Origin: Bdellovibrio svalbardensis
GTDB lineage: Bacteria > Bdellovibrionota > Bdellovibrionia > Bdellovibrionales > Bdellovibrionaceae
Direction: 5' to 3'
Assembly: GCF_029531655.1 (NCBI RefSeq)
Contig: NZ_JANRMI010000003.1
Coordinates: forward strand, 434,001-498,000
DNA length: 64,000 nucleotides
Shown: positions 10,367 to 47,305 of the stretch, in pieces
Layout of the letters: each line of letters begins with the position of its first letter
Position numbering within the stretch: position 1 is the first letter of the stretch
The notes under the pieces: generated by a model
Seen by the model: the letters and a program-made list of their open reading frames with translations, nothing else
What the model was told of the DNA's origin: nothing
The model's database searches: none
Translations under genes and position numbers: made by a program

Positions 10367-10519
10367 GATGTTCACTTTAATCCAAATACTGAGGTTCTGT
10401 ATTATATTTGGGAAAGTAACATCCCAGCTCATTAGTAAAGTTAAGTAACCGTATCTACGCCATTTATTTGAAACTACCTTGAAGCGGCTAGACCAAAGAC
10501 CAAGGCCTATTAAGCCCTT

Positions 10520-10560
10520 TGACTTACATATAATTTACATAGTAACTTATATGTAAGTCA
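10520..10560. promoter_or_regulatory. LexA box inside a 41-bp nested palindrome, imuA promoter
   Basis: The central TTAC-ATA-GTAA at 10535-10545 fits the Bdellovibrio LexA motif TTAC-N3-GTAA. Around it, on the same centre (10540), lie perfect 14-base arms: TGACTTACATATAA at 10520-10533 and TTATATGTAAGTCA at 10547-10560. Only the pair 10534/10546 breaks symmetry outside the 3-base centre. A TATAAT at 10529-10534 overlaps the left arm, and a TTGACT lies at 10519-10524. LexA bound here would cover the promoter of imuA. Confidence 0.85.
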
Positions 10561-10575
10561 CCCATGGAGAGCCGA

Positions 10576-11325
10576 ATGAATACACTCGCCCTTCCCGCCC
10601 TAGCAAATATTCCCTTCGTCTCTGCTGAGGACCTACAACCACCAGCTGGGGTTCCTACTGGCATCAATACTTTGGATGATTTCCTTTTATGGAAAGGCAT
10701 TCCCAAAGGAGACCTCAGTCTTTTCCAGGGAACCCCAGGTACGGGGGCCACGTCTTTATGGGTTTCCCTTACGCAGAAAGCTCACGAACAAAACAAATGG
10801 GTTGCTTGGGTAAATGGCGGAGCACAGCTTCTTCCCACTCATCTGGTCAGTCGCCAGATCAATCTCAAAAAGCTTTTGGTTGTGAAAGAACCCCATGAAG
10901 CCGAGCAGTTGTTTTGGGTTCTACAGGAATTGATCACAAGCTCATTGTTTGAAGTGATCGGCTGCGAACTGAAAGAGATGTTCTTTAAAAATCATCAGCT
11001 GCAAAAACTTAAAAATCTTTGCCGCTTTCACAAAGTGGCACTGATTTTTGTCTGCCACAAAATCAGTCGCTTCGTAAATCCTCTTTTTAGTTTGATCATT
11101 CAATTTCAAAGAGACTTCATCACGATTCAAAGAGCACTTCACCGCCCGACACCTTTCAGTGTCGCGGGCAGCGTGATTCATTCGCATTTTTTATTTCAAT
11201 CTAAAAATGATAAAGATCAAAAACGTGTTGCAAAGAAATTCTTTCTTGAGAGTTCAGATACTCCAACAACGTCAAAGACTTATGTAGATTATTCTTCGCA
11301 AAAAGATCGGCAGCTTTCTCGATAA
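10576..11325 (+). CDS. imuA: ImuA-like mutasome protein with degenerate Walker A
   Basis: The 249-residue protein is a RecA/SulA-like ImuA, the accessory factor of the ImuA-ImuB-DnaE2 translesion complex. It has PTGINTLDDFLLWKGIPKGD near residue 27-45 and GTPGTGAT at 52-59, where the Walker A lysine is replaced by Ala. That agrees with a structural and not an ATPase role. The context (LexA operator upstream; imuB and dnaE2 downstream) supports the call more than similarity alone. ATG 10576 follows GGAGAG with 4-nt spacing; the ATG at 10564 precedes that site. Its last 125 bases overlap the convergent gene at 11201-12484. Confidence 0.8.
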   Translation: MNTLALPALANIPFVSAEDLQPPAGVPTGINTLDDFLLWKGIPKGDLSLFQGTPGTGATSLWVSLTQKAHEQNKWVAWVNGGAQLLPTHLVSRQINLKKLLVVKEPHEAEQLFWVLQELITSSLFEVIGCELKEMFFKNHQLQKLKNLCRFHKVALIFVCHKISRFVNPLFSLIIQFQRDFITIQRALHRPTPFSVAGSVIHSHFLFQSKNDKDQKRVAKKFFLESSDTPTTSKTYVDYSSQKDRQLSR

Positions 11326-12484
11326 AACTAGGGCGCATCTTGAATTCTTCAGGATGCAACTTTGCTAAAAACAATCCGTCCAAAACCGCACTTGAAAATT
11401 GCAGACGACTCAATCGAGTCATTGCCAGTCTTCTTTTCACAAGACTTTTTGCCTCAGGAATAAAGCCATTCGCCAGGCAATAAAACAATTCAAATTTTTC
11501 CACTCTTGAATCCAGGCGGTGGAACTGCGAGACATCGCGCAGTCTTTTCGCCTTGCCCAACTGGGAACGCACTTCATTATAAGATTCCCCGTGCAAAATA
11601 CGAATGATGCCCATGCAAAAATGGCTGTATGATTGACCACGCACCCAGCCTGCACGCTCTGAACTTTTCAGATTCCTGATAAAAGAGATACGGGCATTCT
11701 TAAAGTCCCGAGCCCGCAAATAAGTCTCACCAAGATGAAAATACTTTACAGATATCATCACCTGGTTTGTGCTGTTCATTTTACGATCTAACAGAATAGA
11801 CTTACGAAGATGGTGAGCAGCATCCTTATGGTTTTCAAGAAAATGCAGAACTCGTCCCAACTTGAAATGGTAGTCTGATTTACATAGGGGATTATCGGTC
11901 TTTGCCAACAGTTTTCTGGATTCTTCGAAATAGTCCAAAGCAGGCAAAAGATGACCTACCAACTCCGAACGAATTGCGAGCCAATTCAAAATAAATATCT
12001 GCTCATCAAAAGATCGCAGGGCTTGAGCAATCTCCAAAGCTTTTTCCAAATTTGATTTTGCTGAACGAAGCTTACCAATAAAGAGGGAGGCAAAACCAAT
12101 ATGCTTATACAAAATCAACTCTTGCTGCGTCCCCAAACCACGCCCTGAATATGTTTTCAATATGCGACGATAGCTTTCCCAGTCGTTCGCGGCACGCACA
12201 CGCTGGATGAAATGATCTGAACACAACTCTTCTAAAGATCGATCAATAGGACGCTTGGCCACCACGACAGGCGAAGTGCAAAGTGCAGAGGGAGATACCC
12301 CTAATGCTTTTGCCAAGGCCCCTAGAGTGTCTGGCTTCAATCGACGAACAGTTCCATTTAGCCAACGTTGAATAGTCTTCGTCGTGACCTTGAGTGTTTG
12401 CGCCAGATGCGTCCGCGGGAGACCTTGAGCCTCCAGAAACTTACGTAAGATCGCTGCATCGATTTCTATCAATTCGAGTGTCAT
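11201..12484 (-). CDS. XRE-type HTH regulator with TPR-like repeats
   Basis: The 427-residue protein opens with an XRE helix-turn-helix (AILRKFLEAQGLPRTHLAQTLKVTTKTIQRWLNGTVRRLKP, about residues 10-60). From about 90 to the end it is helical with TPR-like pairs (IGFASLFIGKLRSAKSNLEKALEIAQ; YFHLGETYLRARDFKNARISF). This is the layout of RRNPP-like or Xre-TPR regulators whose repeats sense a peptide or partner; the ligand is unknown. It lies antisense between imuA and imuB, is divergent from imuB, and overlaps the imuA 3' end by 125 bases. I see no strong ribosome site before ATG 12484. Confidence 0.75.
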   Translation of the reverse strand: MTLELIEIDAAILRKFLEAQGLPRTHLAQTLKVTTKTIQRWLNGTVRRLKPDTLGALAKALGVSPSALCTSPVVVAKRPIDRSLEELCSDHFIQRVRAANDWESYRRILKTYSGRGLGTQQELILYKHIGFASLFIGKLRSAKSNLEKALEIAQALRSFDEQIFILNWLAIRSELVGHLLPALDYFEESRKLLAKTDNPLCKSDYHFKLGRVLHFLENHKDAAHHLRKSILLDRKMNSTNQVMISVKYFHLGETYLRARDFKNARISFIRNLKSSERAGWVRGQSYSHFCMGIIRILHGESYNEVRSQLGKAKRLRDVSQFHRLDSRVEKFELFYCLANGFIPEAKSLVKRRLAMTRLSRLQFSSAVLDGLFLAKLHPEEFKMRPSFIEKAADLFAKNNLHKSLTLLEYLNSQERISLQHVFDLYHF

Positions 12485-12622: not shown

Positions 12623-12659
12623 ATTTACATATAATTTACATGGTAACTAATATGTAAAT
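12623..12659. promoter_or_regulatory. LexA box inside a 37-bp nested palindrome, imuB promoter
   Basis: The central TTAC-ATG-GTAA at 12636-12646 is a LexA-type box. Symmetry continues outwards on the same centre (12641) to ATTTACATATA / TATGTAAAT, with two broken pairs (12635/12647 and 12633/12649). TATAAT lies at 12630-12635 and TTGATT at 12620-12625, in the same positions relative to the box as at imuA. Confidence 0.85.
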
Positions 12660-12674
12660 AAAGAGAGCCACACT

Positions 12675-13997
12675 ATGCGCACACTGTGTTTGAATTTTAA
12701 AAGCCCCCAAGAAAGTTCCTGTGCTGAAGCCTTCTTAACCTTCAGCCCGAAGGTGCAATTCCGCTTTCCACACTTTGTCTTTATCGATATCGAATCGACG
12801 GCGCATCTGTTGGGCGGCGAAGTGGCTTGCCTGGAAAAAGCTTTGCAGATTGCGCGCAAGTTTTCTGCAGAAACCAGCGCAGCTATTGCTGACACTCCTC
12901 CTGTTGCACAGATGATGGCGAAGTGGAAGCCGTCCTCCATTTCTCTGAAGGGTCAAGAGGCCAAGTCTTTACAGGGCTTGGGCTTGGATGCCTTGAAGGA
13001 TCTGGAAGGACTGGTCACATGGACTCAGAAAAGACAGATCGAGCATGTGATTTCTTTTGCGCACTCTTTGGGAATTTGCACTTTAGAAGAAGTTTATAAC
13101 TTTAGACTCGTTTCATTGCGTGAGCGTTGGGGGGATTTTGGTGTTTTACTTTGGAATCGTTTGCATAGTCAGGACTCTCAAGTCATTTCACCTTTTATTC
13201 CTCGCGACCCTCTTGTGGGCTATGGCTACCTGGATGATCCCATAGGAGTGGTGAATCTTCTTTTTAATCGCATTCAACCTCATTTAAATATTCTCTTTGC
13301 CCGTCTGAATGGATTGGCCCGTTACGCACAAAAAATGGAAGTGATCCTGCACTGTGAGTACTCGGATAAAAAACATATTTTGCAAATTGAACCCGTCAGT
13401 GCCAGTCGTGACCAGATGCTCTTTGAAGATCTTCTTTGGAAGCGCATGGAAAAGACCGAACTGGAAAATCCGATTCGAGAGTTTGAAATTACAATTTATG
13501 ATGTGCCGGAAAAAGTTCAGCAGTTGAATTTTTTCGAACCGCGCGATAACAGTGAAGATCGCTGGCGCCGCCTGATCAGTTTTGCCAAGCAAGCCAATTG
13601 CGAAATGGGTTTCCTGCAATTGGAAGCCAATCACTTTCCGGAAAAAAGTTTTAAACTGGTCACGGAATGGCCGGAGGACTTTGTCTCTGAAGATTTGGTA
13701 GAGCGACAAGACAATGCCTTACAAATCAAAACAACTTATGCAAAAGGCTTGGCGCAAAGCCCGCGCCCATCCCTTTTGCTGGAACAACCGCAACCTCTTT
13801 CCGATGAAGAGTTGCGCAAGATCCGTTTTGTCTCAGCTCTACCGAGCGAGCGCATTGAATCTTCCTGGTGGCAACTGACAGAGCAAGAGCTTAAATACCG
13901 CGATTACTATTTCGCCCTTTCAAACCAAGGGCAATTGCTGTGGGTTTTCCAAGATCGCATGAGCACACAATATTATTTGCATGGGTATTTCGACTAA
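12675..13997 (+). CDS. imuB: ImuB, Y-family polymerase-like mutasome hub
   Basis: The 440-residue protein follows the ImuB plan: an inactive Y-family polymerase that bridges DnaE2, ImuA and the sliding clamp. Family landmarks are FVFIDIESTAHLLGGE near 34-49, IADTPPVAQMMAKW near 71-84 and RDPLVGYGYLDDP near 177. The catalytic acidic triad of true Y-polymerases is absent. A beta-clamp motif QLNFF stands at residues 283-287. ATG 12675 follows AAGAGAG. The dnaE2 frame continues immediately after its stop, in the same reading frame. Confidence 0.88.
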   Translation: MRTLCLNFKSPQESSCAEAFLTFSPKVQFRFPHFVFIDIESTAHLLGGEVACLEKALQIARKFSAETSAAIADTPPVAQMMAKWKPSSISLKGQEAKSLQGLGLDALKDLEGLVTWTQKRQIEHVISFAHSLGICTLEEVYNFRLVSLRERWGDFGVLLWNRLHSQDSQVISPFIPRDPLVGYGYLDDPIGVVNLLFNRIQPHLNILFARLNGLARYAQKMEVILHCEYSDKKHILQIEPVSASRDQMLFEDLLWKRMEKTELENPIREFEITIYDVPEKVQQLNFFEPRDNSEDRWRRLISFAKQANCEMGFLQLEANHFPEKSFKLVTEWPEDFVSEDLVERQDNALQIKTTYAKGLAQSPRPSLLLEQPQPLSDEELRKIRFVSALPSERIESSWWQLTEQELKYRDYYFALSNQGQLLWVFQDRMSTQYYLHGYFD

Positions 13998-14006
13998 GGA
14001 CATTTT

Positions 14007-17000
14007 ATTAAAAATCAGAGTGGAGACAACCTACTCCGACAGAGTCGGAGTGTAAACAGCCTAGGTACTTACAATGGAGGACGCTCTTTAAAAGAGCCTC
14101 CCTCATCCGCCTTAGTCACCCGTCACCATAAACAACCTCAAGTTTCAGCACCGAAAGCGAAAGCCTTTGTTGAACTTCTCGCACGCAGTAATTTTTCTTT
14201 TCTGTGTGGAGCTTCCCACCCCGAGGAAATGGTTGAGCAAGCTATTAAGCTGGAATACGACGGCATTGCTCTTTGTGATTTGAATGGCCTTTATGGAGTG
14301 GCCCGTGGCTATGCGACGGCCAATTCCGATTCCACCTTCACCGCTTCCAAAAAACCCAAGGAAGGCTTCCATTATCTCATTGGCACGGAGCTGACTTTAA
14401 CTGATGAAACGGCCATCACCCTGATTCCTCAAAACAAGCAGGGCTATTCCCATCTATGCGAATTGCTTACAATAGGAAAACGTCAGGCGACCAAAGGTTT
14501 CTCGTCCCTGCACCTGGAGCAAGTCGAAAAGTACAATCAAGATCTTCTGTGCATCGCCATTCCTCCCATCAGCGAAGAGCGTTATGAACATTTGCATAAA
14601 GTTTTCGGTGACCGCCTTTATATTCCAATATGGCGGGATCTGACTTGGGAGTCTCAAGAGTTTTGCAAACAGGCCTTTCTTCTTGAGGAAAAATATAGCG
14701 CACAGCTTTTCGTCACACAGCGAGCGTTCATGCACACGTCCGAGCGCAAGCCTTTATTTGACGTCCTGACCTGCATTCTGCACCACACGACTCTGGATAA
14801 TGCCAAAGACAAATTGATTCAAAATGCAGAGCGCTCTTTGAAATCTCTCGAAGAGCTTTCCACCTTATGGAGTGATCGCATTGATCTTGTGGAAAAAACT
14901 GTGGAGATCTCGGCACGTTCGACTTTCTCTTTGAGTGAAATTCGCTATCGCTACCCGCGCTCTAACATTCCCAACAACCTCACACCTTCAGAATATCTGC
15001 GCAAACTGGCTGAAGATGGCGCCCAGTGGCGTTTTCCAGATGGCGTGCCTGAAAAAATCTTGCAGCAAATTAACAAAGAACTGACTCTGATTCAAAGTCT
15101 CCAATACGAAGATTATTTTATTACGCTGAAAGAGATCTGTCAGTTTGCCCAGGAAAAAGGAATTTTACATCAAGGACGTGGCTCCGCTGCGAACTCCGTC
15201 GTGTGCTATTGTTTGGGACTGACCTCTGTGAATCCAACAGAGATTGATTTGTTGTTTGAAAGATTTATTTCAGCAGAACGTCGCGAACCACCGGATATTG
15301 ATATCGACTTCGAGCACAGTCGGCGCGAAGAAGTGATCCAGCATATTTATCAAAAATACGATGAGCGCCATGCGGCCATGGTCTGCACTGTGATTCGTTT
15401 TCGATCGCGCATGTCGATTCGCGAAACGGCCAAAGTCTTTGGCGTTCCTCTGGCGAAAATCAATGCCATGATCAAGTTCATGGGCCGCGATGGAATGCGA
15501 CGCCTGACCGAAGATCCGAATGTCTGTCACCAGTTTGGAATGCCTTTGGAGCAATGGAAGTTATTTTTGAATATGGCGAAGCAGGTACACGGATTTCCCC
15601 GCCACTTAGGCATTCACACCGGCGGCTTTCTTATCACCCAAGACTCTATCACCGAGATGGTCCCCGTAGAAAAAGCGACAATGAATGGCCGCTATGTCAT
15701 TCAGTGGAATAAAGATGACGTCGCCGCCATCGGACTTATGAAGATCGACGTCTTAAGTTTAGGCATGCTAACTTGTCTGCGGAAGTGCTTTGACCTTTTA
15801 AAACATCACAAAGGCATCAGCTTCAATCTTGCGACCATTCCTCAAAACGACAAGCCCACTTACGAAATGATTTGTCGTGCTGAAACGGTCGGCGTCTTTC
15901 AAATCGAATCCCGCGCGCAGATGAACACCTTGCCGCGTATGAAGCCACAAAACTTTTATGACTTGGTTGTTGAAGTCGCGATTGTACGCCCCGGCCCCCT
16001 GCAAGGAGGCATGGTTCATCCTTACCTCAAGCGGCGACAAGGACTAGAAAAAGTCACTTATCCAAGCCCCCTGCTGGAACCAATTTTAAAACGCACCCAT
16101 GGTGTTCCTATTTTCCAAGAACAAGTGATGAAGATAGTCATTGCGGCGGCAGGTTTTTCCCCTGGAGAATCTGATGAATTGCGACGAATCATGTCCTCTG
16201 CCTGGCGCAAGCGCTCGACCATGGATGCGATTCGCGAGCGTATCTTGCGTGGTTTTGAAGAGCATCAGATTTCTCGTGAGTACGGTGAGCAAATTTACAA
16301 AACTATTGAAGGCTTTGCGAACTATGGTTTCCCAGAAAGTCATGCCGCCAGCTTTGCTTTGCTCACCTACGCCAGTTGCTATTTAAAATGCCGACATCCC
16401 GATGTCTTCGCCTGCGGATTGCTCAACAGTCAGCCCATGGGTTTCTATGCTCCGCGCACGATTATTTCCGAAGCTCAACAGCATGGCGTGGAAACTCTGC
16501 CTTTATCCATTCAGCACTCTGACTATGATTACACTTTGGAGCCTAACGGAAGGGAGATCCTTTCTTTGCGCGTGGGTTTGCGCTCTCTTTACGGAGTTCC
16601 TGAACAAATCGCACGCAGCATTGAGGACGAGCGAAAGCTTCATGGACCTTTTGAAGATCTGACGGATTTTATTCGCAGAACTTCTTTGCCCAAAGCCTTA
16701 CCCAGAGCTTTATTGGTGAAACTCGCCGCTTCAGGAGCCATGGATTGTTTCAATGTCAGCACGCGCGAATTGATTTGGCATATTGAAAGCCTGAGCCTGG
16801 ATCAAGGCAGCTTCCTGTGGGGCAAGCCGAAAGAAAGTCTGGTGCAAGGTGATTTCGAAGAGGACGACGTGGAAAGTCTGCCTTTTGAGTCCAACTGGGA
16901 TAAGCTACGCCGTGAATATGACACCAAGGGATTTTCTGTCGATGCACATCCGATGTCAGTTTTGCGCTCTTACCTCAACGTGAAAAATCAGGAGCTGATC

Positions 17001-17297
17001 CAACAGCGTTATGTTCCTTACATGACCTCGGAAAACTTAAAGACCCTTCCCAACAAACGAAAAGTGCGTGTCGCTGGATTGGTGGGCATTACGCAACGAC
17101 CTCCGACTGCCAAAGGCATGTGCTTTATCACTTTGGAGGACGAGCATGGGTTCATCAATATTGTGATCCACCCCGAGGTCTATCAAAAAGACCGCATGGC
17201 CATCTATGGCAAGTCGCTTTTGGAAATTCACGGCCAAGTCGAAAAAGTCGGTGATATCATCAACGTGCGCGCCGCACGAGTCCTGCCACTGCAGTGA
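14007..17297 (+). CDS. dnaE2: Error-prone DNA polymerase III alpha, DnaE2 (ImuC)
   Basis: This is the translesion polymerase of the ImuA-ImuB-DnaE2 system. It has a PHP domain (FVELLARSNFSFLCGASHPE from about 14166), GRGSAANSVVCYCLGL, catalytic PPDIDIDFEHSRRE, helix-hairpin-helix and C-terminal OB segment. The PHP metal histidines are replaced (LLAR for H-x-H), as usual in DnaE2. The first ATG is 14229, which would cut away the conserved PHP opening. Between the imuB stop and that opening there is no in-frame ATG, GTG or TTG. An ATT at 14007 follows AAGGA with a 7-nt gap, so I propose AUU initiation, giving 1096 residues. The end is certain; the start is inference. Confidence 0.9.
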   Translation: MKNQSGDNLLRQSRSVNSLGTYNGGRSLKEPPSSALVTRHHKQPQVSAPKAKAFVELLARSNFSFLCGASHPEEMVEQAIKLEYDGIALCDLNGLYGVARGYATANSDSTFTASKKPKEGFHYLIGTELTLTDETAITLIPQNKQGYSHLCELLTIGKRQATKGFSSLHLEQVEKYNQDLLCIAIPPISEERYEHLHKVFGDRLYIPIWRDLTWESQEFCKQAFLLEEKYSAQLFVTQRAFMHTSERKPLFDVLTCILHHTTLDNAKDKLIQNAERSLKSLEELSTLWSDRIDLVEKTVEISARSTFSLSEIRYRYPRSNIPNNLTPSEYLRKLAEDGAQWRFPDGVPEKILQQINKELTLIQSLQYEDYFITLKEICQFAQEKGILHQGRGSAANSVVCYCLGLTSVNPTEIDLLFERFISAERREPPDIDIDFEHSRREEVIQHIYQKYDERHAAMVCTVIRFRSRMSIRETAKVFGVPLAKINAMIKFMGRDGMRRLTEDPNVCHQFGMPLEQWKLFLNMAKQVHGFPRHLGIHTGGFLITQDSITEMVPVEKATMNGRYVIQWNKDDVAAIGLMKIDVLSLGMLTCLRKCFDLLKHHKGISFNLATIPQNDKPTYEMICRAETVGVFQIESRAQMNTLPRMKPQNFYDLVVEVAIVRPGPLQGGMVHPYLKRRQGLEKVTYPSPLLEPILKRTHGVPIFQEQVMKIVIAAAGFSPGESDELRRIMSSAWRKRSTMDAIRERILRGFEEHQISREYGEQIYKTIEGFANYGFPESHAASFALLTYASCYLKCRHPDVFACGLLNSQPMGFYAPRTIISEAQQHGVETLPLSIQHSDYDYTLEPNGREILSLRVGLRSLYGVPEQIARSIEDERKLHGPFEDLTDFIRRTSLPKALPRALLVKLAASGAMDCFNVSTRELIWHIESLSLDQGSFLWGKPKESLVQGDFEEDDVESLPFESNWDKLRREYDTKGFSVDAHPMSVLRSYLNVKNQELIQQRYVPYMTSENLKTLPNKRKVRVAGLVGITQRPPTAKGMCFITLEDEHGFINIVIHPEVYQKDRMAIYGKSLLEIHGQVEKVGDIINVRAARVLPLQ
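14033..14051. repeat. TCCGAC/GTCGGA hairpin, loop AGA
   Basis: ACTCCGAC and GTCGGAGT form a perfect 8-bp stem around AGA in the imuB-dnaE2 junction. The same arms recur at 36841-36859 with loop TTC. Confidence 0.75.
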
Positions 17298-46198: not shown

Positions 46199-47269
46199 TT
46201 AGATAGCGAATTTTAACTGCGAGGTTACAGGTTCGTTAGATACTTTGTTTTGAGTGCCCAGCCTAACTCCCAAGCCCACAAGGCGAACTGCGACACCACG
46301 GCGCGACCAGGCTCGTTCCAAAAGTCTTTCAAAATCTTTCTCGGTGGGAATTCCATGAATCACTTCTTCATGCGTTGTTGATTTGAAATCAAAGAACTTC
46401 AACTTCACAACCATACCGCGCACGCGATCTTCGTACTCACCTTGAATGAGGCGCTGATAGAAATCTTCGTAGAGAGCAGGAATGCGCTTTCGGCACTCCT
46501 CATAGGTTTGCAGATCAGTATTATAAGTCTCTTCCACAGTCAGAGATTTTCGCTCCCACTCGGTGACAACCTCGCGATCATCAATACCTCGCGAGAAATC
46601 ATAAAGCTCTTGAGCGCGTGAACCAAACCAACGATGCAACTCTGGCACAGAAAATTTTTGAATATCAGAACAGGTGTACAAACCAAGCTCGTGCATTTTT
46701 TGAGCGGTGACTTTACCGACTCCGAAAATCTTTTCCACCTTCAGGTCTTTGACGAAACCTTCCACGTCTTGAGGCCGAACGACGAATTGCCCGTTAGGCT
46801 TTTTCCAATCGCTGGCAATCTTGGCGATGAACTTGTTGGGTGCAATGCCCGCAGAGGCTGTCAGATTCAGCTCTTCAAAGATAAGGCGGCGGATTTCCTG
46901 GGCGATCAAAGTGGCACTGCCACCAAACTGCTTACAATCAGTCACATCAAGATAAGCCTCATCCAAAGAAAGGGGCTCAATCTTGTTCGTGAAGCGTTCA
47001 AAGATTTCGCGAACCTTGCGGCTTTCCTCTTTATAAAGATCAAAATGCGGAGGGATTAGAATCAACTGCGGGCACAAACGCACCGCCTGGGAAGAGGGCA
47101 TCGCCGAGCGCACACCAAACTTGCGCGCTTCATAACTCGCCGTGCAAAGTACACTGCGAGTATTCGGTGGCCCGCCAATGCCCAAAGGTTTCCCTTTAAG
47201 TTGAGGGTTAAATTTAACCTCAACCGCAGCATAAAAACAGTCCATGTCGATATGGATGATCTTCCTCAT
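46199..47269 (-). CDS. dinB: DNA polymerase IV (Y family)
   Basis: The 356-residue translesion polymerase has all catalytic acids: IHIDMDCFYAAVE (Asp 8) and LSLDEAYLDVT (Asp-Glu), with SAGIAPNKFIAKIASDWKKPNG. It ends SQLKFAI, a C-terminal clamp-binding motif like E. coli Pol IV. The gene is separate from the imuABC cassette. No ribosome site precedes ATG 47269, and the best promoter would start transcription at about that base. Confidence 0.95.
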   Translation of the reverse strand: MRKIIHIDMDCFYAAVEVKFNPQLKGKPLGIGGPPNTRSVLCTASYEARKFGVRSAMPSSQAVRLCPQLILIPPHFDLYKEESRKVREIFERFTNKIEPLSLDEAYLDVTDCKQFGGSATLIAQEIRRLIFEELNLTASAGIAPNKFIAKIASDWKKPNGQFVVRPQDVEGFVKDLKVEKIFGVGKVTAQKMHELGLYTCSDIQKFSVPELHRWFGSRAQELYDFSRGIDDREVVTEWERKSLTVEETYNTDLQTYEECRKRIPALYEDFYQRLIQGEYEDRVRGMVVKLKFFDFKSTTHEEVIHGIPTEKDFERLLERAWSRRGVAVRLVGLGVRLGTQNKVSNEPVTSQLKFAI

Positions 47270-47305
47270 TTACACATTATTTACATATCTAATTATGAGG
47301 GTCAA
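47270..47305 (-). promoter_or_regulatory. Candidate dinB promoter with TTAC half-sites
   Basis: On the minus strand TTGACC (47305-47300) stands 18 bases before AATAAT (47281-47276). Two TTAC half-sites on the plus strand, 11 bases apart (47270 and 47281), echo the mutasome operators, but there is no complete TTAC-N3-GTAA. Confidence 0.4.

Follow-up and report, generated by a model that had tools for sequence, protein, structure and literature searches.

A four-half-site arrangement of 11-bp direct repeats as the probable LexA operator before imuA in Bdellovibrio svalbardensis

The long palindrome that precedes the mutasome gene imuA of Bdellovibrio svalbardensis is probably a LexA operator, whose four half-sites form two 11-bp direct repeats in facing orientation with 3 bp between them, an arrangement from which we infer occupancy by two dimers. 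Comparative analysis supports the assignment of the half-sites well, and two LexA dimers are the probable occupants of the site. The operator lies in a 64-kb stretch of DNA that was analysed as a whole (hereafter the window), at the head of a cassette with the following features:

10519..10524, forward strand: TTGACT, a probable -35 element that overlaps the first half-site; its TTGAC part is conserved, with a putative promoter role
10520..10560, no strand: full 41-bp palindrome, with an outer 4 bp on each side that lack conservation as a pair
10524..10556, no strand: conserved 33-bp operator before imuA, TTAC-N7-TTAC-N3-GTAA-N7-GTAA, from alignment and pattern search
10564..11325, forward strand: imuA (NF033429 ImuA, E 3.4e-12, under its curated cut-off)
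11201..12484, reverse strand: HTH-TPR (XRE) regulator, between imuA and imuB
12625..12657, no strand: a further operator with the same arrangement, upstream of imuB-dnaE2 and divergent from the XRE gene
12675..13997, forward strand: imuB, so named for its position within the cassette and because it is conserved beside imuA in relatives
14229..17297, forward strand: dnaE2, error-prone DNA polymerase (NF004225, over the cut-off)

The palindrome consists of two 19-nt arms (10520-10538 and 10542-10560) that are complementary at 18 of 19 positions (95%) and lie 3 nt apart. It is the top palindrome of this build (19-nt arms, 3-nt gap, 18/19) in the entire window, and the best score over 100 shuffles of the window, with gaps of 0-5 allowed, was 15/19; the claim of the initial annotation that symmetry extends beyond a LexA-type core around a single centre was thus borne out. 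The core itself, TTAC-ATA-GTAA at 10535-10545, has the form of the published TTAC-N3-GTAA box, and the four half-sites occupy 10524-10527, 10535-10538, 10542-10545 and 10553-10556. As had also been proposed, the distance from the outer TTAC (10524) and GTAA (10553) to the inner half-sites is exactly 11 bp, and each outer half-site repeats its inner neighbour in the same orientation (TTAC at 10524/10535, GTAA at 10542/10553), with outer and inner half-sites sharing the sequence TTACAY. A TTAC-N3-GTAA core is likewise present in the imuB operator (12636-12646) and before lexA of this genome (G000:C1:552755). Within the cassette, comparison with relatives makes it more likely that imuA starts at an in-frame ATG (10576) closely preceded by GGAG; past about residue 215 the imuA frame fails to align with those of relatives. 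Searches of domain and family libraries and of PDB sequences gave no match for imuB. In relatives imuA and imuB overlap; here the XRE gene separates them, and imuB has an operator of its own. Among the genomes examined, this one alone has the XRE-TPR gene at this position. In outlying genera lexA and imuA stand together behind one operator; in the genus of the window they are apart, with one copy each.

An alignment of 22 imuA operators from genomes of the genus Bdellovibrio revealed that TTAC at positions -16 to -13 and -5 to -2, and GTAA at +2 to +5 and +13 to +16, are invariant or nearly so, with information contents of 1.74 bits per column for the arms, 1.97 for the core, and 0.74 and 0.42 for the two flanks. 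Two arm positions vary, 8 and 11, and left and right match there in 20 and 19 of the 22 operators, respectively (Fisher p 0.0008 and 0.004, kinship being ignored). As judged from this alignment, the arms of the imuA operator are under selection. Conservation of the arms in relatives, on which the initial annotation had staked its proposal, was examined directly: the arm half-sites are kept in the 22 genomes of the genus, and also at lexA. The extended pattern occurs in 27 of 60 related genomes, at imuA within the genus and at lexA in the other genera of the family, counts that overstate the number of independent events because the genomes are related and were not corrected for phylogeny. The symmetry had been described over 41 bp, and this extent holds in the present genome, but the symmetric part that is conserved among the 22 operators measures only 33 bp. 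The right GTCA is found in this genome alone among the 22, and besides in the altered operator of another member of the genus (G004), and the left TGAC of the palindrome is part of the conserved, -35-like TTGAC, which accompanies most of the order's lexA and imuA sites. A sigma-70 consensus scan returned scores not above those of shuffled sequence, with TTGACT at 10519 left unscored. The TATAAT that had been said to overlap the arms is indeed present at 10529-10534, but it varies among genomes (TATAAT, TATTAT, CATAAT or CATTAT), whereas TTGAC is nearly constant. The conserved TTGAC beside the left arm and the TATAAT-like letters within it would fit an explanation in which the arms are promoter elements only (-35, -10 and an A+T-rich spacer), with symmetry arising as a by-product. 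Such an explanation is difficult to reconcile with the left-right covariation and with a GTAA that is invariant on the side remote from the -35 element.

The promoters of lexA itself point to the direct repeat as the underlying unit. Exact 5-mer repeats at a lag of 11 are present in 24 of 29 lexA promoters of the order, as against 0-6 at other lags and a mean of 2.8 (maximum 7) in shuffles, and only a few promoters of the order are without an exact 11-bp repeat. In a second collection, which overlaps the first in part, the lag of 11 was found in 44 of 48 Bdellovibrionota promoters versus 3-14 at other lags. Over a slightly longer stretch of the same 48, the repeat is present in 45, of which 22 have the inverted core and 23 do not; one promoter has the core and no exact repeat, and two have neither, making 23 with the core in total. 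Outgroup families possess tandem arrays of 2-4 units with no inverted pair (e.g. TTACACGAAACTTACATCTAACTTACACCTTACTTACAG and TTGACTTACGCAGAACTTACGCAT), with four units in a row in one genome (G059). Across the order, these comparisons establish the direct repeat, and not the palindrome, as the more constant sequence unit. The initial annotation had missed both the direct repeats of the form TTAC-N7-TTAC and the imuB and dinB sites of the same window. A strict 11-bp lag in 44 of 48 lexA promoters also tells against arms made of promoter elements only, and promoter hexamers would not be expected to repeat every 11 bp in 2-4 copies; together with the tracking of the LexA helix by the repeat unit, described below, these points leave that explanation most improbable.

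In other phyla, lag-11 matches are mainly those of Gemmatimonadales, and none was found in the Desulfobacterales lexA promoters of the same collection. The Gemmatimonadales promoters (L291, L293, L295-L299, L301, L306, L311) contain the 11-bp direct repeat TTCGG-N6-TTCGG, which is often followed some 14 bp later by another TTCGG, and this order is probably another lineage with direct-repeat LexA operators.

The lexA promoters of Bdellovibrionota also bear on how the half-sites are paired. LexA might read all four half-sites through a central dimer on TTAC-N3-GTAA, with flanking dimers bound cooperatively and making one specific outer contact each. This differs from the facing-repeat model only in the pairing of half-sites, and comes near the cooperative dimers of the initial annotation. 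In its favour, the core is the published box, and the N3 spacing is constant in the genus, whereas the right arm of genus lexA promoters, which do carry arms, is usually at a distance of 12 bp (N8) and not 11 (N7). Against a central dimer stands the direct repeat without an inverted core, seen in about half of the lexA promoters of the phylum, at the genus dinB sites and in G004, a member of the same genus in which the inner GTAA has been lost at both lexA and imuA and TTAC-N7-TTAC is kept. In G035, another genome of the family, the central spacing is N4 and both N7 repeats are unbroken, which likewise speaks against a central dimer. We regard the central-dimer pairing as possible though rather doubtful, and prefer the facing repeats.

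The arms are assigned to LexA chiefly because the two copies of the repeat unit change together, following the recognition helix of LexA across the phylum. The pairs, taken from exact 5-mer repeats, which were absent from a few promoters, are: 1) NSVQ/NSAQ with TTACA; 2) S[LF]G[TS]VQ with TTACGC; 3) KS[ST]VQHY with GTACG; 4) KSTVHHY with GTTCG; 5) VGTVQHY with TTATGG; and 6) in Gemmatimonadales, LATVHEH with TTCGG. LexA half-sites are hence the most likely identity of the arms on this comparative evidence. A structure model of LexA has the winged-helix and peptidase domains joined by a low-confidence stretch (82-104), and this modelled linker is compatible with independently oriented DNA-binding domains that could adopt the direct-repeat orientation. 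Linker length does not separate mirrored from tandem operators (p 0.12). Two members of the family, G028 (L131/L181) and G035 (L055), encode a second LexA paralogue with 11-bp repeats of GTTCG or GTACG beside a TTAC-type LexA, a case of paralogue divergence in operator sequence.

Pattern searches of the 3.9-Mb genome illustrate what the arms contribute. The bare TTAC-N3-GTAA occurs at 36 sites as against 62 for the reversed control, i.e. it is not enriched, and only two sites, before imuA and before imuB, lie within 3 mismatches of the 33-bp pattern. With the left arm plus core and one mismatch allowed, only lexA, imuA and imuB were recovered in this genome, and essentially lexA and imuA genus-wide. 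A genus-wide search with the arms alone, held at the same distance, matched only the imuA, imuB and lexA operators. Since the two kinds of search find the same operators, arms and core make up one site. If this is true, the arms supply the information missing from the 8-letter box, and a regulon of few genes in a 3.9-Mb genome is explained.

The same result bears on the suggestion, offered in the initial annotation beside that of cooperative dimers, that a second factor shares the operator. A candidate is the XRE-TPR protein encoded between imuA and imuB: its HTH-TPR gene is located within the cassette in divergent orientation to the imuB operator, and the Myxococcus XRE regulator DdiA co-regulates dnaE2 (PMC12288472). 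Its distribution in the genus disfavours it as the arm binder, for a homologue was not detected in 12 of 23 other genus genomes, about half, and the genomes without it have the operator; nor was the gene found beside the operator in relatives. The use of the arms independently of LexA was likewise rejected, the arms-only search having returned LexA-type operators alone. Furthermore, the arms have the sequence of the inner half-sites, and the repeat unit tracks the LexA helix. A second regulator on the arms is accordingly highly improbable, and of the two earlier suggestions that of several LexA dimers is the better supported, as the arms track the LexA helix.

Direct repeats without a facing partner extend the set of predicted LexA sites in the window to a further locus:

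46199..47269, reverse strand: dinB, DNA polymerase IV (NF002677, over the cut-off)
47270..47286, no strand: direct-repeat-only predicted operator, GTAA-N7-GTAA read in the dinB direction, ending at the dinB start codon
47305-47301, reverse strand: -35-like TTGAC near the dinB repeat

The dinB site has the repeat and no inverted core in 10 of 10 genomes examined, with 1.90 bits per column over its 17 bp versus 0.71 upstream. Genus-wide, TTACAYNNNNYTTACAY matched at about 3-5 sites per genome in most cases, the dinB site being one of them, as against 0-2 in the control. Four genus genomes have the same direct repeat where a TIGR03916-type 'DNA modification/repair radical SAM' gene begins (L234:1352, L238:1284 on the reverse strand, L242:1270, L244:1267), identified by a TIGR03916 search in L234, by its radical SAM domain in L242, and by sequence likeness in L238 and L244. 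Both dinB and this repair gene are predicted SOS genes in Bdellovibrio, additions to those already recognized. LexA-type direct repeats also lie upstream of modules of mobile mystery protein A/B (HTH and Fic-like; L229:1294, L231:4552, L216:1501), which suggests SOS control of a toxin-antitoxin-like mobile element. At L239:1282-1328 and at L232:1512-1558, the inner half-sites of two facing TTAC-N7-TTAC repeats are 17 bp apart, not 3, as would suit a direct repeat that can move as a module; the L239 site has a homologue of the window's XRE gene about 700 bp downstream. A fifth direct-repeat site of the window's genome (L227:1360-1376; G000:C2:749859) adjoins TTGACA, with no identified gene directly downstream.

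In the facing-repeat model, each LexA dimer would bind one direct repeat, and the two half-sites of a repeat would present the same face of the DNA, as 11 bp is about one helical turn. Two dimers would fill the region just downstream of the -35 element of the imuA promoter and thereby block transcription of the mutasome. LexA cleaves itself upon stimulation by RecA when DNA is damaged, and such cleavage would free the operator. Several points weigh against the two-dimer model: 1) the published B. bacteriovorus box is the core only, so the arms may not have been essential in those assays; 2) little space is left between adjoining half-sites; 3) most genus lexA operators have N8 in the right repeat; 4) linker length does not tell mirrored from tandem operators, and an exact 11-bp repeat is missing from a few lexA promoters of the order. 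In evolutionary terms, the direct repeat is most simply taken as the older unit of the order, with the facing arrangement a later product of the family and TTAC-N3-GTAA the junction that two facing repeats would create. More broadly, we lean towards the view that the LexA of Bdellovibrionota was at its root a direct-repeat repressor, as in Alphaproteobacteria, with the short palindrome a junction, the mirrored operator a bridge between both types of box, and SOS genes such as dinB hidden from searches for palindromes. A single order displaying tandem, facing and single repeats for close LexA orthologues, with the recognition helix tracking the half-site, bears on how LexA boxes change.

The binding site of LexA has changed repeatedly in evolution, from palindromes to direct repeats. 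In B. bacteriovorus the box is reportedly bound by LexA in vitro and DNA damage-induced, and the LexA regulon is said to include only lexA and one cassette. This box, TTAC-N3-GTAA, as quoted in later papers (Campoy et al. 2005, cited in PMC8565304 and PMC3323433), is the exact centre of the operator described here, and like it precedes lexA and the imuA-imuB-dnaE2 cassette. In contrast, the conserved site here spans 33 bp and has two more half-sites, and, as genomes and genes exist with the repeat and no inverted core, it is not the short box that is conserved most. No paper in the literature examined, with Campoy et al. 2005 outside it, was found to describe a direct-repeat or four-half-site operator in Bdellovibrio. 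The alphaproteobacterial LexA operator, GTTC-N7-GTTC (PMC8565304, PMC3323433, PMC9578287), is likewise a direct repeat with an 11-bp start-to-start distance, and one LexA paralogue in the family of the window, G028a, even has GTTCG-N6-GTTCG; GTTCG was found only at that paralogue, whereas the half-site of the window's operator is TTACA, and its two repeats face each other. In Balneolaeota the LexA motif TTACACATATTTTWTACATA, described as a direct repeat and bound in EMSA (PMC7739468), starts with TTACACAT like the Bdellovibrionota unit and has, by our own count, ACATA copies 11 bp apart, but it is a single repeat from a distant phylum, with no second repeat facing it.
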